Assembly (NCBI GenBank): GCA_003285105.1
Contig: CP030158.1
Coordinates: 3,578,664-3,642,663, forward strand
Origin: Roseithermus sacchariphilus
GTDB taxonomy: Bacteria; Bacteroidota; Rhodothermia; Rhodothermales; MEBIC09517
Direction of reading: 5' to 3'
Length of the DNA: 64,000 nt
Below, one piece after another: positions 3,950-41,888 of this stretch (position 1 is the stretch's first letter; every line of letters begins with the position of its first letter). A model generated the notes under the pieces. That model had not been told where the DNA came from. It saw only the letters and a program-made list of their open reading frames with translations, and did not search any database. Position numbers and translations under genes: made by a program.

Positions 3950-6268
3950 ATGCCTCCCCGACTCATCTGGCTCCTTCTCGTCCTGTGCCTGCCGGCGTGC
4001 CGTCCGGGTCCCTCCCCGAAGCTCGTCGAGCGGCCGGTCGACCGGGTGGACCCGCGCATCGGCACCGGCACCGCCACGACCCCGGCCGCCCTGCGCCACA
4101 GCGAGGCGGACAACGAACCCCGCGGGCAGACCGTCCCGTCCGTGGGGGTCCCCCACGGGATGACGTCGTGGACTCCGCAGACGCGTGCCACGGAGCAGAA
4201 ATGCCTCGCTCCGTACTATGCCGGAGACGAGCGTATCCAGGGGTTCCGCGGGAGCCACTGGATGAGCGGCTCCTGCACGCAGGACTACGGCAGCGTGACG
4301 CTGATGCCGATGACCGGCACGCCGGTGGCCGACCCCGAGGCCCGGTCCTCGGCCTTCGAGCAGGAGACGGCCACGCCCGCGTATTACGCCGTCAGCCTGA
4401 CCGATACCGACATCCGTGCGGAGGTGACCGCGACGAACCGGGCCGGGGTGTTGCGCTTCACGTTCCGGGGTCCCGGCCCGGCCTTCATCGTGATCGAGCC
4501 CAACAGCGACGAGGGCGTCGGAACCGTGCAGATCGACCCCGAGCGGCAGATGGTGGTCGGCAGCAACCCGGTGCACCGGATCTACCAGGGATGGGGAGAG
4601 CCGGCCGGCTTCAGCGGGCACTTCGCCGCCGTCTTCGACCGCCCCTTCGCGGCCTTCGGCGTGTGGCGCGGTATGCAACGGCAGGACGGCGAGACCACGG
4701 CCACCGGCGATTCGTCGGCGGTTCGGGCCTACGTGCGGTTCGACCTGGCGCCCGGCGAGGTGGTCCACGTGCGCATCGGCACGTCGTTCACCGGCATCGA
4801 CGGCGCCCTCCGCAACCTGGACGCCGAGATGCCGGAGGTCGATTTCGAGCGAACCCGCCGCCGGGCCGAGGCCGCCTGGAACACCCTGCTGGGCCGTGCG
4901 CAGGTCTCCGGCGGCCCGGCCGGTGCGGACACGCTCTTCTACACCGCGCTCTATCACGCCCTGCTCCTGCCGCGCACCTTCAGCGACGTGGACGGAGCCT
5001 ACCCGCGCTTCGCCGGCGGCGCGGCCCTCGAACGAGCCAGCGGGTTCACGTACTACGCCGACTTCTCCGTGTGGGACACCTTCCGCGCGGTCCACCCGCT
5101 GCTGATCCTCCTCGCCCCCGACGCCGCGCTGGACATGGTCCGCTCGCTCGTCGCCAAAGGCCGCCAGGGCGGCTGGCTGCCCATCTTCCCCGCCTGGAAC
5201 AGCTACACCTCCGCGATGATCGGCGACCACGTCCTCTCCATCATCGCCGATGCCTACCTCAAGGGCCTGACCGACTTCGACGCCGAGGCCGCCTATGCGC
5301 TGATGCGGCAGAACGCCACCACCTCGCCGGACTCGGCGGCCTATCTCGACGGCAAGGGCCGCCGGGCGCTGGCCTCCTACCTCCGCCACGGCTACGTGCC
5401 CCTCGACGACCCGGTGCGGGAATCCTTCCACCAGCAGGAGCAGGTGTCCCGGACGCTCGAATACGCCTACGACGACTTCGCCCTGGGGCAGCTCGCCGCG
5501 GCGCTGGGCCGGCCGGCCGATGCGCGGCGGTTCTGGGACCGCGCCGGGAACTACCGCCACGTCTTCGACCCCACCGTCGGCTTCGTCCGTGGACGGTATG
5601 CCGACGGCTCCTGGGCCGAGCCCTTCGACCCGGCGGAGCGGGCCCCGTACATCACCGAAGGCTCGCCCTGGCACTACACCTGGTACGTGCCCCACGACGT
5701 CCAGGGCCTCATCCGGCTCATGGGCGGACGCGACGCCTTCATCGCCCGGCTGGACACGCTCTTCGAAGCGGGCCACTACTGGCACGGCAACGAACCGGGC
5801 CATCACATCCCCTACCTCTACGCCTATGCCGGCGCCCCGTGGAAGACGCAGCAGCGGGTCCGCGAGATCATGGCGGCCGAGTACGGCCCCGGCCCCGGCG
5901 GGCTCAGCGGCAACGACGATGCCGGGCAGATGTCGGCCTGGTTCGTCTTCTCGGCGCTCGGGCTGTATCCCGTCAGCCCCGGCTGGCCCTACTACGTGCT
6001 CGGCAGCCCGCTCTTCGAGACGGCCCGCCTGGAGGTCGGCGACGGGCGGACGTTCACGATCCGCGCCGAGGGCGTCTCGGACACGCATCGCTTCATCCAG
6101 GCCGCCACGCTGAACGGACGGCGGTACGACCGCCCGTGGATCGACCACGGCGTGCTCACGGCCGGCGGCGAACTGGTGCTGACGATGGGGCCGCAACCGA
6201 ACCCGGCCTGGGGCGCGGACCCCGCCCTGGCCCCGCCGACGATGACGCTGATCGACTCCGTGCCGTGA
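3950..6268 (+). CDS. GH92 family alpha-mannosidase, lipoprotein
   Basis: 772 residues. ATG at 3950 gives a lipoprotein signal (WLLLVLCLPACRPG). The protein matches the full length of the GH92 family of calcium-dependent exo-alpha-mannosidases: RIGTGT and VGVPHGMTSWTPQT in the N-terminal beta domain, QGFRGSHWMSG, the general-acid region TEGSPWHYTWYVPHD, and the diagnostic GNDDAGQMSAWFVFSALG starting near residue 654, whose acidic pair belongs to the catalytic base region. The family removes terminal mannose from glycoproteins and mannans with inversion. A lipid anchor places it on the outside of the inner membrane or at the outer membrane. No other mannan enzyme is adjacent. The linkage preference (1,2, 1,3 or other) cannot be told from sequence. 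Confidence 0.92.
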   Translation: MPPRLIWLLLVLCLPACRPGPSPKLVERPVDRVDPRIGTGTATTPAALRHSEADNEPRGQTVPSVGVPHGMTSWTPQTRATEQKCLAPYYAGDERIQGFRGSHWMSGSCTQDYGSVTLMPMTGTPVADPEARSSAFEQETATPAYYAVSLTDTDIRAEVTATNRAGVLRFTFRGPGPAFIVIEPNSDEGVGTVQIDPERQMVVGSNPVHRIYQGWGEPAGFSGHFAAVFDRPFAAFGVWRGMQRQDGETTATGDSSAVRAYVRFDLAPGEVVHVRIGTSFTGIDGALRNLDAEMPEVDFERTRRRAEAAWNTLLGRAQVSGGPAGADTLFYTALYHALLLPRTFSDVDGAYPRFAGGAALERASGFTYYADFSVWDTFRAVHPLLILLAPDAALDMVRSLVAKGRQGGWLPIFPAWNSYTSAMIGDHVLSIIADAYLKGLTDFDAEAAYALMRQNATTSPDSAAYLDGKGRRALASYLRHGYVPLDDPVRESFHQQEQVSRTLEYAYDDFALGQLAAALGRPADARRFWDRAGNYRHVFDPTVGFVRGRYADGSWAEPFDPAERAPYITEGSPWHYTWYVPHDVQGLIRLMGGRDAFIARLDTLFEAGHYWHGNEPGHHIPYLYAYAGAPWKTQQRVREIMAAEYGPGPGGLSGNDDAGQMSAWFVFSALGLYPVSPGWPYYVLGSPLFETARLEVGDGRTFTIRAEGVSDTHRFIQAATLNGRRYDRPWIDHGVLTAGGELVLTMGPQPNPAWGADPALAPPTMTLIDSVP

Positions 6269-29290: not shown

Positions 29291-32200
29291 CTACACGTCA
29301 AACCCGAACAACACGCCGAAGTGCCACTGCCATTCCCGGCCGTAGCGCACCGTCGAACGGCCGTCGGGCGTCAGGAAGCCCTCGTCGAGCCGGAAGTCGA
29401 AGCGGTCGAGGCCGTAGGTGGCGCTCAGGAAGAGGGCGGTGGGGAGCAGGTAGAACGACCCGACGCCGAGGCGCAGCTCGGCCCCGACGTCCCGGCGGGC
29501 GGCATCGAGGCCGGGCCAGGGGCCGCTCCAGGCCATCGCGGCATCGGCGTAGAGGCGGGCGTAGAGCTTGTCGAGGTAGACAAAGAGCACCTGGCGGTGG
29601 ATGCGCGGCAGCAGCGGCGCGTGGTAGGCCGCCTGGAGCCAGAGCGTCTCGTTGCCGCCGAGGGCATAGAAGGGATAGCCCCGTGCCCCGATCAGCCCGC
29701 CCACGTAATCGTTGTAGAAATCGTCCACCGGCGGGCCGAGCAGCGTGCTTCCCCGGAGCCGGAGGCCCAGTCCGTGCACGCCGCCGCCCGGGCGTCCCGG
29801 AAGCCGGAGCCCGAAGCGCGTGTCGAGCGTCAGGCGATGGTTCGTGTCCTGCCGATACTGAGGCACGAGCACCCCGTTCTCCACGTCGAAGCGCTCCAGG
29901 AGCCGCCCCGTCTCGGCTTCATAGCGCGCCTCCAGGCATAGCCCCTCGGGCAGCACGTCGGCATCGCGGTAGGGCCGCAGCAGTTCGACGTACGCATTCG
30001 CCATGAACGCCCGCCCGATGTAATAGCGGGACGACGAGCTGGGGATGAATTGATCCTCCTCCCGGGAGAAGAACCGCTCGGTCTTGACACGGTACGGGCT
30101 GTAGCGGTACCCCACCTCCAGCAACGTGTAGCGGTTGACCTTGCTGCGCGCAAAGACGTCGGCTTCCCAGAGGCTGTAGGCCAGGTCCGCATACGTGGTG
30201 TCCGGGTAACACGCCGTGCAGGGGAACTCCTCGATGGTCAATCCACGGTCTACGTTGCGGCGGATGTTGTACAACTCCACGGCCAGTTGCGGCGACCAGC
30301 GCCGGGGGAGGAACCCGAAGCCTTTCCGATACTCGACCTGCAGGAAGGCATCGCGCTCCAGGTCGAGCAACCGCGAGGGCGAGAAGAAATCCCCCAGCGA
30401 CGTCGCCTCTTTCGAAGCCGGCCCCACGAGCACCCCGCCGAGCAGGCTCATGCCCTCCAGCACCTCGCGGGACGACACGTAGACGCCGGTTTTCAGGTTG
30501 CGCAGCAACGCCTCGCCGCGCGTGCGCGTCGTGAGACGGGCGTCGAGGTCGCGCGTGCGGCGGGTGACGTACTGATCCAGCCGGAGGACCGGGAAGAAGC
30601 TGAAGGAGGTGAACGTCTGGCTATAAGGGCGCACGGACGAGCCGGCGGGTTCCGGGGCGGTTTCTGCGACCGGCTCCGCGGAGGTGGTCGCCGGGGCGTC
30701 GGTGCCGGAAGGCGGCCGGTAGGTGCCCTCGGTCCGCACGGCGGTGAGCACCGGCGCCGGCCAGGGTCGCAGATCGGCGTCGTCGTAGCGGTTCAGCGCC
30801 GCCCACTCGGCCGCCACCGGCGCCGGGACGTCCGGCTTCTGCGTGATCGGCGGCGGCGTGTACGAGGCCGTCCGGGCCGCCTCGGGCAGCGGCGCGATCT
30901 CACGCCACGCGATCTTGTAGCCGTCCCACTGGTACTGCGCGAAGGCCAGACGGCCCGTGGCGTCGACGTCCGGCATGAAGGCCCCGCCCAGCACGTTCGT
31001 CAGCCGCTCCGCCCGCGACGGGTCCGGCAGCGCCTCGCCCGCCGGCAGCGGCAGGCGATAGAGGTTGAAGATGCCCGAGGCGTCCGAGCTGTAATAGAGC
31101 GCCTGCCCGTCGGGATCGAAGGCCGGCGAGCGCTCGTCGGCCGGCGTCGCCAGGACGGGCTGCAGGTCGGAGCCGTCCGGCCGGAGGCGGTAGAGGTCAC
31201 GGCCGTGTCCGTCGGGCTGGGTCCGCGCCAGGTAGATCCAGTCGCCCGAGGGGTGCCATACCGGATCGCTGACCTGCGTGCCGTCCTGGAAGTCCGTGAG
31301 CGGCGTCATCGCCCCGGTGGCCCGGTCCAGCCGGACCAGGTTCGTCGTCCCGTCCTCCTGCCGGATGAAGACGATCTGCGCGCCGTCCGGGGCATAGGCC
31401 GGATCGGTGGCCCGGGCCTTCGTCGTCAGCCGCTCGACCGACTTCGAGGCCAGGTCGATCTCGTAGAGGTCGGCATACAGATAGCCTTCCGGGGTGTCCC
31501 GGCGACGCGCGTAGACGATGGCCTGGCCGTCCGGCCGCCAGTCGAAGGCCCCGGCGACGCCCGACCGGAGGCGGTGTCCGAGGGCGCAGGTGTGCACATA
31601 GACGTGCGGGTCGAGGCCGTCCAGGTGATGGGCGGTCACGGTGCCCTCCGTCAGGTCGCGGACGTAGAGGCTGGTGCGGCTGAAGTCCTCGCCCCGGTTG
31701 GAGAGGTAGGCCAGGCGCGTCCCGTCGGGCGAGAAGCGCGGATAGAAGTTGTAGAAGCCGTCCGGCTCGACCAGGTCCCCTTCGGCCAGCGATGCCCGGA
31801 CGGCCTCGGTCCGTTCCCGGTAGGCCTGGCGCAGGTGCCCCATCCAGTCGGCATAGACCCGATCGCCCGGCACGCCCAGGGCGTCGCGCATGGCCCGCTC
31901 CACGTTCCAGTTCGACCACGTCCCCAGGGCCGCGCTGAGGCGTCGCAGGGCCTCCTCGCCGTAGGTGTTGGCGAGGTAGTGCGTGAAGGCAAAGCCGTGG
32001 TTGTAGACCCCTTCCCGCAGGAGGCTGGAGTGCGAGTAGAAGCCCCCCATGTCGGCCAGCGACAGCTCCTTGCCGGCGAGGACCCGCGTACGCAGCAGCA
32101 TGTCCCGGTGCGTGTCCCAGCGGTCGTAGTGCAGCCCCGCGCGCTGGTACTGCGCCGTCCCCTCGGCCAGCCAGGCGGGGTTGTTGAGGGTGGGGATGGG

Positions 32201-32788
32201 ATAGGTGACGATGACGTTCGGGTAGCCGTAGAGCACGTCGGGCCGCCGTACGTCCTCGTAGTCGAGCACCTGCAGGTACAGGAAGGGCAGCTTGCGGCCG
32301 GCCTTCATTGTCTTCTGCACCTGCACGATGTGGGTGAATTCGTGCGTGATGACGTTGCGCAGCCAGCGGTGATCGCCGCGCAGGGGCGAGTCCAGCGCCG
32401 GCGCCCAGATCTCGATCTTGTTGTCGAAGAAGTAGGCCGCTCCGTTCGAATAGTCCTCGTAGTCCTTGAGCACGAAGGAGACCTTCGTGTCGGGTTCGTG
32501 GTCGTAGAGGCCGGTGATGGCCGGGTAGATCTCCTCGGCGATGCGGGCCACGACCTGCGCCGTGCGGCTGCTGCCCCGCCCCTCCTCATCGGCATGAAAA
32601 TGCACGAGGAAGTGCTCCGTCTCGATGGTGTACCACGTCAGCTCGGGGCGGGCGTAGTCGTACGTCGAGGGAGACACCTGCGCGGCCGCCGTCCCCGCGC
32701 CGAGGGCGATCGACACGAGACATCCGGCGGCGAGGGCCATCCCCCGCAACCACCTCCCTGACGCGCCTGTCGTCGTGCGTGGCTTCAT
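29291..32788 (-). CDS. Secreted gluzincin-TolB propeller-barrel protein
   Basis: 1165 residues with a signal peptide (ALAAGCLVSIALGAGTAAAQ). Residues about 40-330 form a peptidase-MA-like gluzincin domain: ITHEFTHIVQVQ gives the HExxH zinc motif (H149, E150, H153) and WLAEGTAQYQ the downstream glutamate. Then come at least five TolB/PD40 propeller motifs, such as FYPRFSPDGTRLAYLSNRG, DPAYAPDGAQIVFIR and SPAFDPDGQALYYSSD (about 345-620). After a Pro/Thr-rich linker the C-terminal third is barrel-like (GLRLRGSTLLGPPVDDFYND; GARGYPFYALGGNE; end HFGVLFGFDV), as in surface-antigen/BamA-type barrels. This suggests a surface metalloprotease anchored by its own barrel. It starts 6 bp after the preceding gene's stop. 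Confidence 0.85.
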   Translation of the reverse strand: MKPRTTTGASGRWLRGMALAAGCLVSIALGAGTAAAQVSPSTYDYARPELTWYTIETEHFLVHFHADEEGRGSSRTAQVVARIAEEIYPAITGLYDHEPDTKVSFVLKDYEDYSNGAAYFFDNKIEIWAPALDSPLRGDHRWLRNVITHEFTHIVQVQKTMKAGRKLPFLYLQVLDYEDVRRPDVLYGYPNVIVTYPIPTLNNPAWLAEGTAQYQRAGLHYDRWDTHRDMLLRTRVLAGKELSLADMGGFYSHSSLLREGVYNHGFAFTHYLANTYGEEALRRLSAALGTWSNWNVERAMRDALGVPGDRVYADWMGHLRQAYRERTEAVRASLAEGDLVEPDGFYNFYPRFSPDGTRLAYLSNRGEDFSRTSLYVRDLTEGTVTAHHLDGLDPHVYVHTCALGHRLRSGVAGAFDWRPDGQAIVYARRRDTPEGYLYADLYEIDLASKSVERLTTKARATDPAYAPDGAQIVFIRQEDGTTNLVRLDRATGAMTPLTDFQDGTQVSDPVWHPSGDWIYLARTQPDGHGRDLYRLRPDGSDLQPVLATPADERSPAFDPDGQALYYSSDASGIFNLYRLPLPAGEALPDPSRAERLTNVLGGAFMPDVDATGRLAFAQYQWDGYKIAWREIAPLPEAARTASYTPPPITQKPDVPAPVAAEWAALNRYDDADLRPWPAPVLTAVRTEGTYRPPSGTDAPATTSAEPVAETAPEPAGSSVRPYSQTFTSFSFFPVLRLDQYVTRRTRDLDARLTTRTRGEALLRNLKTGVYVSSREVLEGMSLLGGVLVGPASKEATSLGDFFSPSRLLDLERDAFLQVEYRKGFGFLPRRWSPQLAVELYNIRRNVDRGLTIEEFPCTACYPDTTYADLAYSLWEADVFARSKVNRYTLLEVGYRYSPYRVKTERFFSREEDQFIPSSSSRYYIGRAFMANAYVELLRPYRDADVLPEGLCLEARYEAETGRLLERFDVENGVLVPQYRQDTNHRLTLDTRFGLRLPGRPGGGVHGLGLRLRGSTLLGPPVDDFYNDYVGGLIGARGYPFYALGGNETLWLQAAYHAPLLPRIHRQVLFVYLDKLYARLYADAAMAWSGPWPGLDAARRDVGAELRLGVGSFYLLPTALFLSATYGLDRFDFRLDEGFLTPDGRSTVRYGREWQWHFGVLFGFDV

Positions 32789-32794
32789 GGCGTG

Positions 32795-35700
32795 CTAGCG
32801 GATCACCGCCATCGTAATCAGTCGCGTAACGGATGCCCCGTCGTCGGCCGTGAAGCGAACGCGGGCGACGTAGATGCCGCTGGCGGCATCCGTCTGCCAG
32901 AGCACCTCGGTGGGCACGCCGGCGGGCACGTCTTCTATGGTGATGGCCTCCACCAGGCTCCCGGCCAGGTCGACGATGGTGATCTCCGCCCGACCGCGGG
33001 CCGCCGGGCGGAGCCGGATGAACGTCCGCCCGTCGCGGATCGGGTTGGGCCAGTTGAACACGTCGGCCTCGGGCAGGAGCCCCCCCTCGGCGGCGGAGGG
33101 CGGGGCCGTGTCCGGGCTGCGGTAGCTGTCGTGCCGGGGCGAGCCGTAGAGCTGAGCCCAGACCGCCGTGGGTGCGTCCTCGAACCGCCAGGCACGCAGC
33201 ATCCCGCCCTCAGCCACCGCCAGCAGCCGGTCCTCCACGAGCAGCGGCGTGGCCGTGAGGCGCGCGCCCACGGCCAGCGGGAAGCCCGGCACCGCCCGCT
33301 CGCGGCCGCCGATGTCGGCGGCGTACACCGAGCCGTCGAGGAGGCCGACGAGGACCGACCCGCGTGCTCGGCCGGGGAAGCGCGCCACGAGGGGCTGCGT
33401 CACGGCAGCCGCCGGCAGGGCCATCGGGAAGCCGTCGACCACCGCGCCGCCCTGCGTGAAGGCCACCAGCCAGGCCCCGTACGTCGCCAGGACGTCCAGA
33501 CGGCCGTCGTCGTCCAGGTCGGCCAGCAGCGGGTAGCGAGTGAGGGCACCCGGAGCATCCAGCACCGTCCGCACATCGACCATTCGCACGGTTTCGTCCG
33601 GCAGCAGCCAGACCAGCACCGCTTCGTTGACCACGGGCAGGACGCCCAGCGGGCGGCCGTCCTCCTCGCCCACGACGAGCTGGCCGACGTTCCAGTCGTG
33701 CGGCAGGGCATCGCCGGTCCAGGGAAGGTCGTACGTCCAGGCGGACTCACCCACGCGCGCGCCGCGGCCCCCCGCCACCGCCGGCCCGCCCGGCGTCATC
33801 GCGAGCGTACGCACATCCTCCACCGGAGCCGCGTCCAAGACCTCCGCCGTGGCGGCTCCCCCGGCATCCACCTCCAGCGCCAGCAGCCGCCCGCCCTGCT
33901 CCGTCCGCGCCACCACGTAGAGCCGGCGCCCCCCGGCCACCAGCGGAGGCTCCAGCCGGGCGTCCTGCACCGCCTCCGGCAGCGGCACCTCGACCGTGGA
34001 CACCGGACCGCCCACCGCCGCGGCCCACCGCACCACCGCGTGCGTGCCGGTGGCCCGCTCGACCCACACGAGCCGCTCATCGGCGTCGACGGCAAAGACC
34101 ACGTCCTCGCCGGCATCGAGACGCCGTTGGCCGTCGGCACGCAGGGCGATCAAGGCCGCGCCGGTGTCGGGCGGGGTCGCGCCCCGGTACACGAGGACGG
34201 CCGGGCCGTCGGCGGCGGGCCACCAGCCCACGGCGCCCCCCGTTGCCGTGGCCCCCACGTCCTGCCCGTCCAGCACCGCATCCACCGCGATCCCGGCGGC
34301 CTCCTCGCGGCGGAAGGCAAAGGTCATCGTCGGCCCCGGCGCGGAGAAGCCTTCCAGCACGAGGAAGCTGGGGCCACCGTCGTTCGTGGAGGTGCTCGGG
34401 TAGGTGTCCGGGCCGAAGCGGTTCTGGTAGAGCCGGATCTCGCGGCCGCCGGCCGTGATGACCCGCACCGGGTTCCCCTCATACCAGAAATCGAACGGCG
34501 AGCCCCGGTCGAACTCCGGTCCGAGCGGGTTCAGGTTGGGCCGGCCGAGGTCCTGCGCTCCGTCGGCCTCCTCCAGGTCCAGACCGCGGCGGGCCGGGTC
34601 GGCATTGACGCGGTTGGCGGCCAACCCCGCCGCCAGCACGCGCTCATCGACGTGCCAGATCAGGATGCCCCCGTTCAGCTCGTTGCCGTCCTCGTCCAGC
34701 CCGCCCGGCAGCGCCCAGTCGTACGTATTCGCCCCGACCACCACCCCGCCGATGAAGCCGCTGACGTCCAGGCTGTTGAACGTCTCGTCGCCGTTGGTCA
34801 CGCGCTGCTCGGTGACGACGCCGTCCTGCCAGACCTGCATCACCAGGCCCTCGCCCGTGGGGTCGCGGTAGCGGTTCTCGATGAGGAAGTACTCGGCGTC
34901 CGAGATGGCGGCGCGGGCGATGCCTCCACCCGGGCCGGCCACGGCGTCGAGCACGTGGGTGCCGGGCGCGTCGAAGTCCAGCGTCACCGGATCGGCCCAG
35001 CCGAGGTAATAGCGGGTCCAGGCGCTGGGCTCCGGGGGAAAGAGGCCGTTGAACGCGAAGAAGCCGTAGGGGTCCATCAGCCCGAAGGGGCCGATGGCGC
35101 TCTGCTGCCCGGCGGTATCGAAGAGATCGGGCACGCCGAGGGCGTTGAACAGGCTGGCCGCCAGCAAGCCGTTGATCGAGATCTCCGCGAGGAAGGGCTG
35201 ATCCTGGATGAAGTCGTACGCCCGCCGCGTTTCGGTTCGCGGGATCAGCATCGTGTGATCGACGGGGCGGCCCTTGAAGCCTGGCAGCCGCCCGCCCAGC
35301 AAGCGCTGGAGCGCGCCCTCGTCGAAAAAGAGCGACGGCAGATCCTCCGGCGTCCGGTCGAAGGTCGTCCCGGTCAGTTCGATGTCCCGCCCGACCCCGG
35401 CATGGAAGAGCAGGAACACCGTCCGCTCCGGGTCGAGGCCCGACGGGTCGAAGCCGCTCTGCCGGTCGGCCAGCGTCCAGGCCTCCTCGACCAGCGCCGC
35501 CAGCCTGGCCAGTTCGGCATCGCTGTCCGCCTCCGGCCCGGTCGGGCTATAGGCTCCCATCGGGCGAGAGACGCGGACCACCTCGGGGATGAGGTGCGTG
35601 GTGAGCTGCGTCTGCCCGTCGGAGACGGTGGCGACGTAGTGTTCGAGGAAGTCGAGGTGTGCCTGGAAGTAGGCGGCGTCGTGCGGGAGCGGGTCGATGC

Positions 35701-36046
35701 GCGGCTCCAGCGTGTCGAAGAGCGCTCCGTCGAAGGTGCCGTCTCCCGTGGTATAGCGCGACGTGTCCGGCTGGAACTCGACGCGCAGCGCGACCACGTG
35801 CAGCGTGGGCGGCGCCGGCTGCCGCAGCGGCGTTGCCGCCCCGGCGGGCGGTAGCATCTCCCGGAGCGCCCGCTGCAACTGCACCACCTCCGCCGACAGG
35901 CGAGGCGCCGGGCGGGGAGGTGCGTCCTGCGCCCGGGCCGCGAGGGCGCCGTACCCACAGAGCAGCAGACCGCACAGGGCGCCACGCCAACCGGACCACC
36001 GGCCCCGTCGCCTCCCGTGCGGCCGGTGGCCGGTCAGACTACCCAA
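32795..36046 (-). CDS. T9SS-secreted M6-like protein with inactive zinc motif
   Basis: 1083 residues; the only upstream start in frame is TTG at 36046, followed by a plausible signal peptide (GALCGLLLCGYGALAARAQ). The first half resembles M6 (immune-inhibitor-A-like) proteases: the ALGVPDLFD segment and GGILIWHVDE plus RRGLDLEEADG are family features. However, the HExxH motif expected just before LGVPDLFD reads ASLFN (residues 297-301), so zinc binding should be lost. The second half is propeller-like (blades with LADLDDDGRLDVLATYGAW). The final 80 residues are a type A T9SS sorting domain: FNWPNPIRDGRTFIRL through SGIYVARVRF to AVIR. It is probably exported by T9SS and displayed as a non-proteolytic binding protein. 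Confidence 0.85.
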   Translation of the reverse strand: MGSLTGHRPHGRRRGRWSGWRGALCGLLLCGYGALAARAQDAPPRPAPRLSAEVVQLQRALREMLPPAGAATPLRQPAPPTLHVVALRVEFQPDTSRYTTGDGTFDGALFDTLEPRIDPLPHDAAYFQAHLDFLEHYVATVSDGQTQLTTHLIPEVVRVSRPMGAYSPTGPEADSDAELARLAALVEEAWTLADRQSGFDPSGLDPERTVFLLFHAGVGRDIELTGTTFDRTPEDLPSLFFDEGALQRLLGGRLPGFKGRPVDHTMLIPRTETRRAYDFIQDQPFLAEISINGLLAASLFNALGVPDLFDTAGQQSAIGPFGLMDPYGFFAFNGLFPPEPSAWTRYYLGWADPVTLDFDAPGTHVLDAVAGPGGGIARAAISDAEYFLIENRYRDPTGEGLVMQVWQDGVVTEQRVTNGDETFNSLDVSGFIGGVVVGANTYDWALPGGLDEDGNELNGGILIWHVDERVLAAGLAANRVNADPARRGLDLEEADGAQDLGRPNLNPLGPEFDRGSPFDFWYEGNPVRVITAGGREIRLYQNRFGPDTYPSTSTNDGGPSFLVLEGFSAPGPTMTFAFRREEAAGIAVDAVLDGQDVGATATGGAVGWWPAADGPAVLVYRGATPPDTGAALIALRADGQRRLDAGEDVVFAVDADERLVWVERATGTHAVVRWAAAVGGPVSTVEVPLPEAVQDARLEPPLVAGGRRLYVVARTEQGGRLLALEVDAGGAATAEVLDAAPVEDVRTLAMTPGGPAVAGGRGARVGESAWTYDLPWTGDALPHDWNVGQLVVGEEDGRPLGVLPVVNEAVLVWLLPDETVRMVDVRTVLDAPGALTRYPLLADLDDDGRLDVLATYGAWLVAFTQGGAVVDGFPMALPAAAVTQPLVARFPGRARGSVLVGLLDGSVYAADIGGRERAVPGFPLAVGARLTATPLLVEDRLLAVAEGGMLRAWRFEDAPTAVWAQLYGSPRHDSYRSPDTAPPSAAEGGLLPEADVFNWPNPIRDGRTFIRLRPAARGRAEITIVDLAGSLVEAITIEDVPAGVPTEVLWQTDAASGIYVARVRFTADDGASVTRLITMAVIR

Positions 36047-36193: not shown

Positions 36194-37372
36194 TTACCGC
36201 GTGAAGTTCAGCAGCAAGGAGAACCGCATCGTGTTCGAGAGCGGGTGGTCCTCCTCCAGCGCATAGATGTAGGAGAAGTCCACGCCCACGATGTTCCACC
36301 GGATGCCCGCGCCGAAGGTGAGGAACTGGCGGTTGCCGTTGTACGGGTTCTCGTAGAAGTACCCGGTGCGGATGGCGAAGAGGTTGTTGTACCAGTACTC
36401 CAGCCCCGTGCCGATGGTCATCTGATCCAGCACCGAGAGCGTCTGGTACTCCGCTTCCTCCTCGCTGAAGGCGTTGGTGCGCACGTCGATGGAGCGCCAG
36501 GAGGAGAAGATCGCCTGATACCAGGGGTCCGCCCGCGAGACGCCGGACGTGTCGACGTCCACGTTGATGAGCATCTTGTTGAAGTCGTTGGCGAACGTCA
36601 GGCGGTTGTACTCGTCGAAGTCGAACGTGAAGGCATACCCGAAACGCAGGTTGGTCGGGATCGGGTCGCTCTGTTCGCTGTCGGAGTACTGGATCTTCGG
36701 CCCCATGTTGGCCAGGTTGAAGCCGGCCGAGAAGGTCGTCTGGATGTTGCCCAGCGCGAACGGCCGCGTGCGGTAGAGGCCGGCCAGGTCGAACCCGACC
36801 GAGACGCCCGCCTTCGTCTCCTGCGCGTCGACGCTCTGGCCCGGGGCGAGGTTCGAGTAGATCAGCCGGAGGCCGCTGCCCAGGGCGAACTGCTCGTTCA
36901 CGTTGAAGCCGAAGGAGCCGCCCAGGGCGAGGTCGTAGGATTTGAACTCCCCGCAGGGGTTGTTCTGGGCGTCCCGGCATTCGTGCCGGCCCAGGTTGAG
37001 GTAGGTCACCTGCCCGCCGAACGTCCCGAGGCCGGGCACGTGGTAGCGGCCGACGAGGTACTCGTAGTACAGGTCGGCGTTGAACTCGGGCAGCCAGTTG
37101 GAGTGCGTCAGCGAGGCCTCCACGCCGCGCTGGAAGGCCAGGCCGGCGGGGTTCCAGAAGACGCCGTAAGCGTTGTCGGCGAGGGCCACGCCGGCGTTGC
37201 CCATGCCGGCGGAGCGGCTGTCGGGCTCGATCTGCAGGAACACCACGGCGGCCCCCCCGATCTGGGCTCGGGCCGGCGTCGCGAGCGCAGCCGCGCAGAG
37301 CACCGCCGCAAGGATCGTCAGGAGCGTCGACAGGCGGCGGCCCGCAGGCTGCCGGGACAGAGAGGTTCGCAT
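36194..37372 (-). CDS. porV: Type IX secretion outer-membrane protein PorV
   Basis: 392 residues from ATG at 37372, which opens the signal peptide (LLTILAAVLCAAALATPARA); the frame upstream to 37504 runs into porU. Family features of PorV/LptO (PF03687-like, FadL-related barrel) are clear: VVFLQIEPDSRSAGMGNAGV, LADNAYGVFWNPAGLAF, THSNWLPEFNADLYYEYLVG and the C-terminal ALEEDHPLSNTMRFSLLLNF ending in an aromatic residue. PorV receives cargo from the T9SS translocon and shuttles it to the PorU sortase. Its position directly downstream of porU (135-bp gap) is the usual Bacteroidota order. Confidence 0.93.
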   Translation of the reverse strand: MRTSLSRQPAGRRLSTLLTILAAVLCAAALATPARAQIGGAAVVFLQIEPDSRSAGMGNAGVALADNAYGVFWNPAGLAFQRGVEASLTHSNWLPEFNADLYYEYLVGRYHVPGLGTFGGQVTYLNLGRHECRDAQNNPCGEFKSYDLALGGSFGFNVNEQFALGSGLRLIYSNLAPGQSVDAQETKAGVSVGFDLAGLYRTRPFALGNIQTTFSAGFNLANMGPKIQYSDSEQSDPIPTNLRFGYAFTFDFDEYNRLTFANDFNKMLINVDVDTSGVSRADPWYQAIFSSWRSIDVRTNAFSEEEAEYQTLSVLDQMTIGTGLEYWYNNLFAIRTGYFYENPYNGNRQFLTFGAGIRWNIVGVDFSYIYALEEDHPLSNTMRFSLLLNFTR

Positions 37373-37507
37373 GGGATCACCGGAGGTATGAAGGGTTGGC
37401 GCCGCAGGGCGCCGTGCCAGGCGTTGCAGGAAGGTCATGTCGGTTCGAAGGATCGTCGGATGCATGTCAAGCGAAAGAGGTAGCAAATGCCGGACCAAGG
37501 CCACGCC

Positions 37508-40500
37508 TCAGCGAATGACGGCCAGCTTTTCGATGTGTTCGGAAACCTGCCGCTCGCCGTCGAGCCCCTCGACCTCGACGCGAACCTTGTAGAGGTAGAT
37601 GCCGGTTCCGAGGCGGTCGAAGTCCTCATCGAGCCCGTCCCATACGATCTGGACCGGCCCGGCCGAGAGGATCCGTTCCTCGTCGAGGGTACACACGGCA
37701 CGGCCGCTGAGGGTGTAGACGCGCACCTGCACCCGGGCGGGCGTGCCCGGCGGCTGGTTGTGTTCGAAGACGAAGCGGGTGGGGCCGGTCGTGGGATTCG
37801 GGTAGTTGTACACGTTGGCGACCCGCAACACCTCATCCTCGGCCACGACGTACTCCAGCTCGGCCGTCGATGAGTTGTTGAGCACGTCCCAGACGCGCAC
37901 GGAGAGGGTGTTCAGGCCCAGGGGCTGCTCCCGCAGGCGCCATCGCACCGTCCCGCGCTGGTACGAGTCCGGCTCGCTGCGGAAGGCGCTGCTCAGATCG
38001 ACGGCGTCGTTTTCCGCGCCGTTGACGACGAGCAGCATCTCGTGCCCCACCCCGGCGCCGACGGTGTTGATGCCGCTCTCGTCGAAGAGCTTCACGATCA
38101 GCTCGGGCTCGCGCGTGGTGAGGCCGCCGGAGACGAACGTCGTGTCGTTGAGGAACAGGGCAATCTGTGGCCCTTCGGCATCGTCCGGGGGCCGGTCGGA
38201 CGTCCCGCCGACGACCACGCGCTCGGAATGGCCGATGGCCTGCGCCCCCGGCGCCGCGGCGTAGAGCGCGACCCGCCCCGGCTGGTTGCTGTAGGAAATA
38301 TCCTTCGGGACGACGAAGGTGGCCTCGAAGCGGCCATCCCGTGCGGTCACCTCCCCACGCCAGATCAGGTCCTCCTGCACCACGTAGTAGTCGGTCGGCA
38401 TGAACCGGCGATAGGGCAGCGGCACGCGACGCTCGGCATCGAAGACGGTGAGGCTGACGGTGCCGTTGAACCCGGGATCCGGCGTGCCGTCCGGGGTGCG
38501 CACCTCCCCGCGGAGCGTGACGCGGTCCAGCGCCCGCAGGGGGGCCGGCGCCTCGTCCACCGCCGTGCCGTTGACGTCCGTGAGGGCGGCCCGGTAGGCA
38601 GGCAGGCCCAGCCGCAGCGTCGGGTCGCCGAGCAGGTTGAACTTCCGGTTGTTGCCCTGCAACCCGACGGTGGTGTTCTTGGTCAGCCGCAACGCATCGC
38701 CCAGGCGCCGGGGAAGGCCGTTCTCCTCACGCCGGAACAGTTCGCGGTTGAGTTGCAGGTTCAGTCCGGTGTTCAGGGTCGTGGTGCTGCTGGAGGTATA
38801 GACCAGGCGGACGGTGGTCATCAGCGACACGGCTCCCCCGTTGGGGTTCAGGATCAGCGCCTCCGCCCCGCTCTGCTCGTTGTTCATGTCCCACCGGCCG
38901 AAGGAGCAGGTGGCCGTCACGAAGATCGTCAGGTGGTCGTAGTTATCCAGGCTCCAGGCATCCTCGCGCGTGAAGAGCTCCTCGTCGGCCAGGCCGGCGG
39001 GGCCGCCGTGCCCGCTGTAGTTGAACAGCAGCGCCCCCTCCTCCAGCGTCGCCCGGATCTGGGCCTTCGCCTCGGGGAAACGCCATCCGTTGAGGTAGAC
39101 CCGGTTGTACGAAGGCGTGTAGATCTTGCGGAGGTTCAGGTCCCCGTGCTCGGCCCGCACGTAGGAGGCCACCGCATCGATGTTCTGGACATGAAGATCG
39201 TAATCCTTGTTCTCATCGGACCGCGCCTTGCCGTCGTCGGCCACGAAGACGTAGTTGCTCCGCCAGCTCCCGTACGTCGCCTCGCTCTCGTAGTGTTTGA
39301 TCTTCTCCACGACGAGGCGGGCTTCCTCGACGGTCTGCACCGGGAACCGTCCGATGCCGATGTCCACCCGCTCGCAGACGTACCCGGAGGGGGCGCAGAA
39401 GTCGCGCGTGTAGGGCCAGAGGCCTTCGGCGTCGTCGAGCAGGCCGAAGTAGTCGTCGCTGGTGTAGGAGTGATCCGGGTCGAACGTCTCCTCGGTCTGG
39501 TAGGGAAAGATCCAGTTGGTCAGTTCCGCCTGCTCGCCGGTCAGCCCCCGGTAGTCGAAGTGGCCGTCGCCAAAGAGCAGGGCATAGCGCAGCAGCCGCT
39601 CCTCGTCCGGGGCGCGGTCGTAGAGGAACTTGAAGTAGTCCCGCACGGCCCGCATGTCCGGCACGCCGCCGGAGAATTCGTTGTAGATCTGATCGATGCG
39701 GGTGACCAGCACCTCCAGGCCCTCCTGGCGGCGGTGCTCGGCCAGATCCCGTGCGGCGTCCAGGAACGGCTCCGGGGCGACGATCACGAAATCGGGGTAG
39801 CCGTCGAGGCCGTGCAGGTTCTGATTCGCCACGGCTGCGGCAGCGCCGGCGTCCACGCTGCGAATGAGCGGGCTGCTCTCGACGAAGGCGACGAGCTCGC
39901 GCGGAGTGGCGGGGTCCGTCACGGTCACCTGCACGCGGTACCCGCCGCTGCCGGACTGCACGCCGAGGCGGCGAACGGTGCCGGGATCGGTCACGTCCCA
40001 CACCTGCGGCGGCTGCGTGAAGCCCGCCAGCACGAACTCCAGCGTCCCGGTCGCCCCGCCGGGCGTGGCGAAGCGGAGGTAGCCGTCGGCCGCCGTGAGC
40101 GCCTGCGGATACACCACCCGGAGCCAGTCCAGCGCCGCCTTCGGCTGGTTGATCTGCTCCTGCAGGCGCATCGTCAGATGCAGCGCCGCCCCGGCACCGA
40201 CGGTCTGCGTAAAGCGCTGCTCGGCCGGCGCGGCCGACGGATCTTCCGTCCCGCGTCCGATGATGGGGGCATCGACCGAGGCCAGTTCGGTTCCGTTCGA
40301 CTCGAAGAAGACGCGGGCACGGGGGTTGGCCGCAATCGCGACCCGGGCATGGTAGCGGACCGTGCCGGCAGTCAGGCCGGGGGGACGGACGCCCTCCAGG
40401 ATGCGACGGACACCGCCGGCTTCGATGGTCGTGCTGACCCAGGTCAGGCCGGTGCCCTCCCCTTCCCCTTCCGGCGCCCACATGTACTCGTCCAGATCGA

Positions 40501-41551
40501 CGACGTACCGCCCGTCGACCGTCGTGTAGATCGCCGTCGGGGAGGCACCCGGAAAGGGCGTGTCGGCGACCCGCCGCCCGTCGGTCGCGTCGATCTTCAG
40601 GAAGTAGACGTTTTCGTTGGAAAAGGGATGGACGTAGTGCACCCAGGCCCCCTCGCCGGAGTTCTCGTCCACCTCATAGGTCCACCCCCGTGGGCCGGCG
40701 GCGTAGAAGAGCAGCACGTCACCGGCGTCGAACGAACCGTCTCCGCCGCCGCGCACCAGCACGGGGTTCTCGACGAGGTCGGCCGGGCGAGGGGCCCCGT
40801 TGAGCGCCGGGAGCGGCCGTCCGCCGTTGCCGTAAATCTTCAGGTGATTCGGCTCGATGCTGCCGGGCGAGAGGCCCAGCTGGCTGAGGACGTCCCGGTC
40901 GATCCGGTAGAGTCCGGCTTCCGTGACGGGCAGCTTGAAGATCTGCCCGTCGGCCAGGACGCTCCGGGTAACGGCGAGGTGGGGATTGGTGCGGGAGGCC
41001 TCCAGACGGGTTGCCGCCCTCGTGTCGTCGGTCTGCGCCGCACCGGTTTCGACCACCACCACCAGGCGGCGATACCGGCGGACGGCGCGGCGGGCGGCAT
41101 CGTAGGCCAGCAGCCGGGCCTGCAGCGTCGCCACCGGCCGCCGGCGATGCAGCCCGACGTCCGCCAGCGTCACCAGCGGGCGCGAGAGCGCCGCCAGCAG
41201 CGTGTCGGTGCCGGCGGCGGGAGGCAGCACCAGCTCGTCGTACTCCGCCGCCTCGATGCGCACCGGGGGCAGGACGGCGCGCGGCAACGTCACCAGCTCC
41301 GCCACGTCGAACACACCGCCCGTAGCAGCCCGGGCGAAGGCCTCGTCGAAGGCCGTGGCCCCGGTCGAGTCCTGCACGGCACGGAGCGAAAGCGACCAGG
41401 CCACCGTGATCTCGTAGCGCTGTGCGCCCTCCGGCGACGGCAGCGGCTGCACCCGGGCCACCTGGGCAGCGGCCGGGAAGGCCGTCACCACCAGCGCCAG
41501 CGCAGGCACGAGGAAACGGGGAAGCAGCATCGGGCGGCGAGGGTTACGCAT
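37508..41551 (-). CDS. porU: Type IX secretion system sortase PorU
   Basis: 1347 residues from ATG at 41551 (ATG 41530 is an alternative), with a signal peptide (PRFLVPALALVVTAFPAAAQ). The protein has the long N-terminal beta region typical of PorU (KLPVTEAGLYRIDRDVL; LKIYGNGGRPLPALNG) and a peptidase C25 gingipain-type domain with the catalytic His in FNYSGHGG (H848) and Cys in VTATCSFGRWD (C882). An Ig-like and sorting-type C-terminal domain ends it (YNYPNPTTGPTRF; GTGIYLYKV; AVIR). PorU removes the C-terminal signal of T9SS cargo and attaches A-LPS. The neighbouring M6-like gene encodes a likely substrate. Confidence 0.94.
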   Translation of the reverse strand: MRNPRRPMLLPRFLVPALALVVTAFPAAAQVARVQPLPSPEGAQRYEITVAWSLSLRAVQDSTGATAFDEAFARAATGGVFDVAELVTLPRAVLPPVRIEAAEYDELVLPPAAGTDTLLAALSRPLVTLADVGLHRRRPVATLQARLLAYDAARRAVRRYRRLVVVVETGAAQTDDTRAATRLEASRTNPHLAVTRSVLADGQIFKLPVTEAGLYRIDRDVLSQLGLSPGSIEPNHLKIYGNGGRPLPALNGAPRPADLVENPVLVRGGGDGSFDAGDVLLFYAAGPRGWTYEVDENSGEGAWVHYVHPFSNENVYFLKIDATDGRRVADTPFPGASPTAIYTTVDGRYVVDLDEYMWAPEGEGEGTGLTWVSTTIEAGGVRRILEGVRPPGLTAGTVRYHARVAIAANPRARVFFESNGTELASVDAPIIGRGTEDPSAAPAEQRFTQTVGAGAALHLTMRLQEQINQPKAALDWLRVVYPQALTAADGYLRFATPGGATGTLEFVLAGFTQPPQVWDVTDPGTVRRLGVQSGSGGYRVQVTVTDPATPRELVAFVESSPLIRSVDAGAAAAVANQNLHGLDGYPDFVIVAPEPFLDAARDLAEHRRQEGLEVLVTRIDQIYNEFSGGVPDMRAVRDYFKFLYDRAPDEERLLRYALLFGDGHFDYRGLTGEQAELTNWIFPYQTEETFDPDHSYTSDDYFGLLDDAEGLWPYTRDFCAPSGYVCERVDIGIGRFPVQTVEEARLVVEKIKHYESEATYGSWRSNYVFVADDGKARSDENKDYDLHVQNIDAVASYVRAEHGDLNLRKIYTPSYNRVYLNGWRFPEAKAQIRATLEEGALLFNYSGHGGPAGLADEELFTREDAWSLDNYDHLTIFVTATCSFGRWDMNNEQSGAEALILNPNGGAVSLMTTVRLVYTSSSTTTLNTGLNLQLNRELFRREENGLPRRLGDALRLTKNTTVGLQGNNRKFNLLGDPTLRLGLPAYRAALTDVNGTAVDEAPAPLRALDRVTLRGEVRTPDGTPDPGFNGTVSLTVFDAERRVPLPYRRFMPTDYYVVQEDLIWRGEVTARDGRFEATFVVPKDISYSNQPGRVALYAAAPGAQAIGHSERVVVGGTSDRPPDDAEGPQIALFLNDTTFVSGGLTTREPELIVKLFDESGINTVGAGVGHEMLLVVNGAENDAVDLSSAFRSEPDSYQRGTVRWRLREQPLGLNTLSVRVWDVLNNSSTAELEYVVAEDEVLRVANVYNYPNPTTGPTRFVFEHNQPPGTPARVQVRVYTLSGRAVCTLDEERILSAGPVQIVWDGLDEDFDRLGTGIYLYKVRVEVEGLDGERQVSEHIEKLAVIR

Positions 41552-41888
41552 CAACCTGATGGGCACGGAACGACCTGGCAGGGACGCGAAAGGCGAGCCA
41601 GAAACCGCGCTTAGCAGGTAGGAACAGAACGTTACGGATACGCTGTCTTCGTCATCACGGGGACGTCGCCGGAGGGGGGAGGCCGGACGGTCAGCGTGGC
41701 GTCGTAACCTTGCTCGATACGCAGATGCCGTTGCTAAGCGTGAAGGAAAAGAGGTGAGGCGTTAAGATAGGAGACGCCAGAGGATTCCACAAGAGCGTAT
41801 CGGCGGCGCCGGGTGGGGCTTAACACGCCCATCGTACCGGACCTCTCCCCGGCGGTTCCACCGGAAACCGACGATCCGGCTCGTCACC
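41552..41888 (-). promoter_or_regulatory. 337-bp gap upstream of porU with a candidate promoter
   Basis: On the minus strand, CTTG (41793-41790), a 20-bp spacer and TATCTTAA (41769-41762) make a fair match to the Bacteroidota TTTG/TAnnTTTG promoter. It would start transcription near 41755 and leave a leader of about 200 nt before porU. A 9-bp inverted pair CGCTTAGCA (41608) / TGCTAAGCG (41732) lies within that leader. No ORF, tRNA or repeat family was recognised here. Confidence 0.35.

Follow-up and report, generated by a model that had tools for sequence, protein, structure and literature searches.

A predicted T9SS-dependent M6 pseudoprotease co-inherited with a putative outer-membrane metalloprotease in Bacteroidota

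The porU-porV locus and the layout of M6i

The window, a stretch of 64,000 nt of Roseithermus sacchariphilus DNA, carries on its minus strand porU (37508..41566), which encodes the sortase of the type IX secretion system (T9SS), a C25 peptidase (NF033707, 997.6 bits); porV (36194..37504), which encodes the T9SS outer-membrane shuttle (NF033710, 299.6 bits); a gene for a pseudoprotease that we refer to as M6i (32795..36046); and a further gene, here called the partner (29291..32788). Among 40 loci sampled across many families, 39 have porV as the gene immediately upstream of M6i, and ~33 have the partner no more than 3 kb downstream of M6i. The tie of M6i to PorU is weaker than its ties to PorV and to the partner. 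PorV-like proteins number 15 in this genome, with just one exceeding the PorV cut-off, and 1 to 13 in relatives.

The M6i gene starts with TTG, just behind a ribosome-binding-like stretch (GAGGGG), and encodes a protein of 1083 aa that matches NF052323.1 over its full length (726.7 bits; cut-off 600). The same family is matched by all 44 orthologues that we aligned, which are 25-50% identical to the protein of this genome over their full length. NCBI lists the family as T9SSA_dep_M6i ('T9SS-dependent M6-like inactivated metalloprotease'), and M6i is a full member, with a dead M6 domain, a propeller and a sorting domain. The protein itself is an additional member of a family already named; the name is silent on an obligate partner gene, a literature search found no paper on the NF052323 family or its function, and the partner result is what is new.

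Sequence profiles and structure prediction together support an architecture of Sec signal peptide, M6 domain, propeller and T9SS sorting domain. The M6 (InhA-like) domain is predicted at residues 79-582 (34301..35812, minus strand). An AlphaFold model of residues 70-585 reached a pLDDT of 91.6 and a pTM of 0.93 and aligned with the M6 peptidase InhA2 (4yu5 and 4yu6) at Z scores of 22.0 and 21.2 over 382-386 residues, the next row of that structure search, another family, reaching only Z 9.3. TIGR03296, the model of the M6 domain, was matched by 44/44 orthologues, while M6i of this genome fell below its cut-off. The domain was missed by single-sequence PDB and Pfam searches, and Foldseek alone, given the isolated domain, returned no M6 match; it was a second structural aligner that gave InhA2. 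Residues 585-957 (33176..34294, minus strand) are predicted to form an eight-bladed beta-propeller, which in structure comparison matched the eight-bladed propellers of Tako8, Fbw7 and BamB (Z 21-24). In the whole-chain model (pLDDT 85.7), this propeller is followed by a C-terminal beta-sandwich, and the sequence from residue 991 to the C-terminus (32798..33076, minus strand) constitutes a divergent T9SS type A sorting domain with a component-like tail.

An ancient loss of the zinc site

An earlier note on this DNA had described a T9SS-exported M6 protein without its zinc site. The M6 hallmarks that it had listed (LGVPDLFD, GGILIWHVDE and RGLDLEEADG) are indeed found, and alignment and structure prediction agree on the M6-fold pseudoprotease that it had proposed. 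Where an M6 enzyme carries HExxH, M6i reads ASLFN (residues 297-301; 35144..35158, minus strand), the HExxHxxGxxD frame corresponding to residues 297-307 (A297-S298-L-F-N301-A-L-G304-V-P-D307). All three catalytic residues are gone in 44/44 aligned orthologues: position 297 is A, S or G; 298 is S, T, Q, N, M or I; and 301 is S, N or G. What surrounds them has been kept, namely G304 (42/44), D307 (44/44; 35126..35128, minus strand) and M324 (41/44), the last presumed to be the Met of the Met-turn. The third zinc ligand of M6 enzymes (thuringilysins) is an Asp (PMC12237041), which corresponds to D307. M6i thus shares with InhA2 the fold and the third-ligand Asp, but, unlike it, has neither of the two zinc histidines nor the catalytic Glu, and carries a sorting domain and a propeller in addition.

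Across 82 orthologues and fragments we found no displaced HExxH, apart from one fortuitous HEMAH elsewhere in a single member (L018). Recent pseudogenisation and sequencing error were considered and rejected, since the substitution is family-wide and the sequences are strongly conserved. As judged from these alignments, the loss of the zinc site is ancient and fixed; the question put by the earlier note, whether orthologues share it, is answered in the affirmative.

Conservation is unevenly distributed along the protein and peaks in the M6 domain. GGILIWHVDE scores 0.90, the former active site 0.75 and the FHAGVGRDIEL-DLPS segment 0.72, and the propeller, at 0.27, is the least conserved part. 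A dead cleft that is conserved more strongly than the propeller fits a cleft that still binds something better than it fits an adhesion propeller. The predicted eight blades bear out the propeller-like half seen in the earlier note, whereas its suggestion that the protein had been converted into an adhesin gains no specific support from this pattern.

Co-inheritance with the partner gene

Like the earlier note, we found the locus to adjoin PorU/PorV and a gene with an intact HExxH. The product of the partner gene is predicted to combine a peptidase-MA domain with a TolB-type propeller and to end in an outer-membrane barrel. Its HEFTH (residues 149-153; 32330..32344, minus strand) is intact and is accompanied downstream by an invariant Glu, E209; HExxH is kept in 41/41 partner orthologues examined, with the first match printed for one of them (L060) lying elsewhere in the sequence. 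The 'live' metalloprotease of the earlier note stands at the level of the motif, as a putative enzyme, and it belongs to the peptidase-MA group, not to M6. As for the barrel, weak matches to Pfam Omp85 (1 of 35 members), BamA and TamL (one each) suggest that the C-terminal region resembles an outer-membrane barrel, from which its topology would follow. The partner exceeds the NCBIfam cut-off for no family of its own, though it occurs in 151 of 394 genomes.

Screening these 394 genomes of the phylum returned M6i in 151 and the full-length partner in 151, and the two lists are identical, with zero discordance; both genes occur in 86 of 170 genera. Presence signals were clean: the weakest listed matches had E-values of ~1e-107 (M6i) and ~1e-226 (partner), and partner paralogues elsewhere scored only ~180 bits. 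At least 16 of the genomes carry M6i and the partner unlinked; in one of these (G005), ~0.86 Mb of a single contig separates them. Mapped onto a SprA tree of 31 genomes, presence and absence change at least five times, each time for both genes.

Losses of the pair can be seen between close relatives. Compared with its sister G081, whose flanking proteins are ~80-96% identical, genome G151 lacks M6i and the partner between porV and the next gene, and a 66-residue M6i-like remnant directly after porV (positions 4726-4923 of locus L199) marks the place where both genes were recently deleted. In G235 and G356, the pair present in G085 of the same genus has been deleted, so that a thioredoxin-like gene directly follows porV. 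PorV is retained in all of these genomes. Since a single deletion can remove adjacent genes, such events at linked loci weigh less, and most of the weight is carried by the unlinked cases and by the absence of any single-gene genome among the 394.

We conclude that M6i and the partner probably work as one unit. The active/inactive protease pair that the earlier note had conjectured is, at the genetic level, well supported by these sequence comparisons; its biochemical function we infer. M6i represents a bacterial pseudoprotease that has stayed inactive over much of the phylum and is genetically bound to one membrane protease. Regulation of active proteases by pseudoproteases is a familiar theme in eukaryotes.

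The sorting domain, the sortase and a proposed outer-membrane module

The type A sorting domain of the earlier note proved real but divergent. TIGR04183 scored 23.5 bits against M6i in the genome scan (cut-off 23), the second weakest of 104 matches in the genome, and 18.5 bits against it as a whole protein; 37/44 orthologues matched the model. The corresponding part of the M6i profile matched the C-terminal domain of PorZ (5m11; E=0.003), and nine M6i members matched the PorU model. A PorU-like subclass was considered for this domain and rejected, as profile scores set it apart as a separate class, which is at least as near to cargo as to PorU; it is the C-terminal tail, not the rest of the domain, that is PorU/PorZ-like. 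Ala occupies position -4 in 43/49 M6i tails, 29/40 PorU tails and 6/8 PorZ tails, versus 2/49 cargo tails (0/29 of the strongest and 2/20 of the weaker ones), counts that set related sequences against the cargo of one genome and are suggestive only.

Porphyromonas gingivalis PorA, PorU and PorZ retain their C-terminal domains (PMC11285876), that of PorZ staying uncleaved (PMC8545088). By analogy, and judging from one residue of the tail, M6i may retain its own. With a tail like that of T9SS components and not of cargo, removal of the C-terminal domain, as the earlier note had expected, is an unsafe prediction. M6i resembles PorZ in combining propeller structure with a T9SS C-terminal domain and a similar tail; PorZ, however, has two propellers of seven blades each and lacks an M6 domain. 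PorU, too, has a protease fold and a C-terminal domain that is not processed (PMC11285876), and its gene lies upstream of porV, but it is a catalytic C25 cysteine peptidase of another fold. Elsewhere in the genome (C1:3484559-3484801), an open frame of 1460 aa ends in LRKVAVIR, a PorZ/PorU-like end unlike other cargo tails, and is possibly another retained T9SS component.

With respect to the sortase, 16 genomes of one family possess M6i, the partner and SprA and lack PorU and PorZ (one of them, G368, is counted by its absence from both the PorU and the PorZ match lists); PorV was present in those that we sampled. Conversely, PorU occurs in 267 genomes, ~130 of which are without M6i, and it remains where the pair was deleted in G235 and G356. 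A pair kept without PorU and PorZ, and a PorU often found without the pair, argue that M6i is not tied to sortase function. PorU-less genomes encode 5-32 recognisable sorting-domain proteins and most PorU-positive relatives checked 32-123, exceptions being G159 (14) and G191 (16). Several genera of the PorU-less family (e.g., loci L013-L019, L076 and L077) have lost PorU and the LPS-delivery protein PorZ and kept SprA and their 5-32 sorting-domain proteins. M6i as a substitute for PorZ was likewise rejected, for this genome and most M6i-positive genomes own a PorZ.

These observations bear on what M6i might otherwise be. An ordinary T9SS cargo adhesin or surface binder, stripped of its C-terminal domain by PorU and placed at this locus incidentally, would likewise combine a propeller with a type A sorting domain, and ~100 other sorting-domain proteins are encoded in this genome. 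We regard this reading as unlikely: such a protein would hardly sit directly behind porV in nearly every locus sampled, share its distribution exactly with the partner, carry a tail unlike that of cargo, persist in the 16 PorU-less genomes with few cargo proteins, or be conserved in its dead cleft instead of its propeller. Adjacency to porU/porV, the PorU/PorZ-like tail, the PorZ profile match and the members that match the PorU model would all suit M6i as a fifth component of the attachment complex PorU-PorV-PorQ-PorZ, where it would help to anchor cargo. That role is equally improbable, as the pair persists where PorU and PorZ are both missing, about half of the PorU-positive genomes lack M6i, and PorU outlasts the pair in both genomes with the in-genus deletion.

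The most economical reading is that the pseudoprotease M6i serves the neighbouring membrane metalloprotease. We propose, with about an even chance of being right, that M6i is a T9SS-exported pseudoprotease and joins the partner in an outer-membrane module of two proteins, in which it is the one that does not cut. SprA is present in this genome, and M6i would cross the outer membrane through it, be held at the surface by PorV and, like PorU and PorZ, retain the C-terminal domain. Its former substrate cleft would bind a polypeptide or the partner without cutting, and M6i would thereby recruit substrate to the partner metalloprotease or regulate it. A sharper version, in which the two proteins constitute an undescribed two-component outer-membrane protease complex, independent of PorU, with M6i presenting the substrate or gating access, we put forward more tentatively, as possible but somewhat short of an even chance. 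Counting against a module of this kind, an Omp85-like topology would turn the protease of the partner towards the periplasm, with M6i outside. The natural double deletions and the lineages that retained the pair after losing the sortase make the role of M6i directly testable and point to a so far undescribed T9SS-dependent module.

Strict one-to-one co-inheritance with a large barrel protein would also be expected if M6i existed mainly for the partner barrel, as its dedicated substrate, as a chaperone or as a cofactor of its assembly, for instance of its folding, with the dead cleft of M6i idle. We doubt this, for conservation peaks at the former active site and the motifs next to it, which suggests a cleft in use, and a role as substrate only needs no conserved eight-bladed propeller. 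Least probable is an enzyme of another kind, with another metal site or hydrolase chemistry: H215, D235, D307, D325, H465 and E493, invariant or nearly invariant in the family, could make up another site, but several of them sit in motifs that the earlier note took for M6 hallmarks, and no alternative metal-binding motif was seen in M6i.

Separately, the genome encodes an M6-like protein with HEFGH (C1:1896263-1896709), which is unrelated to the M6i locus.
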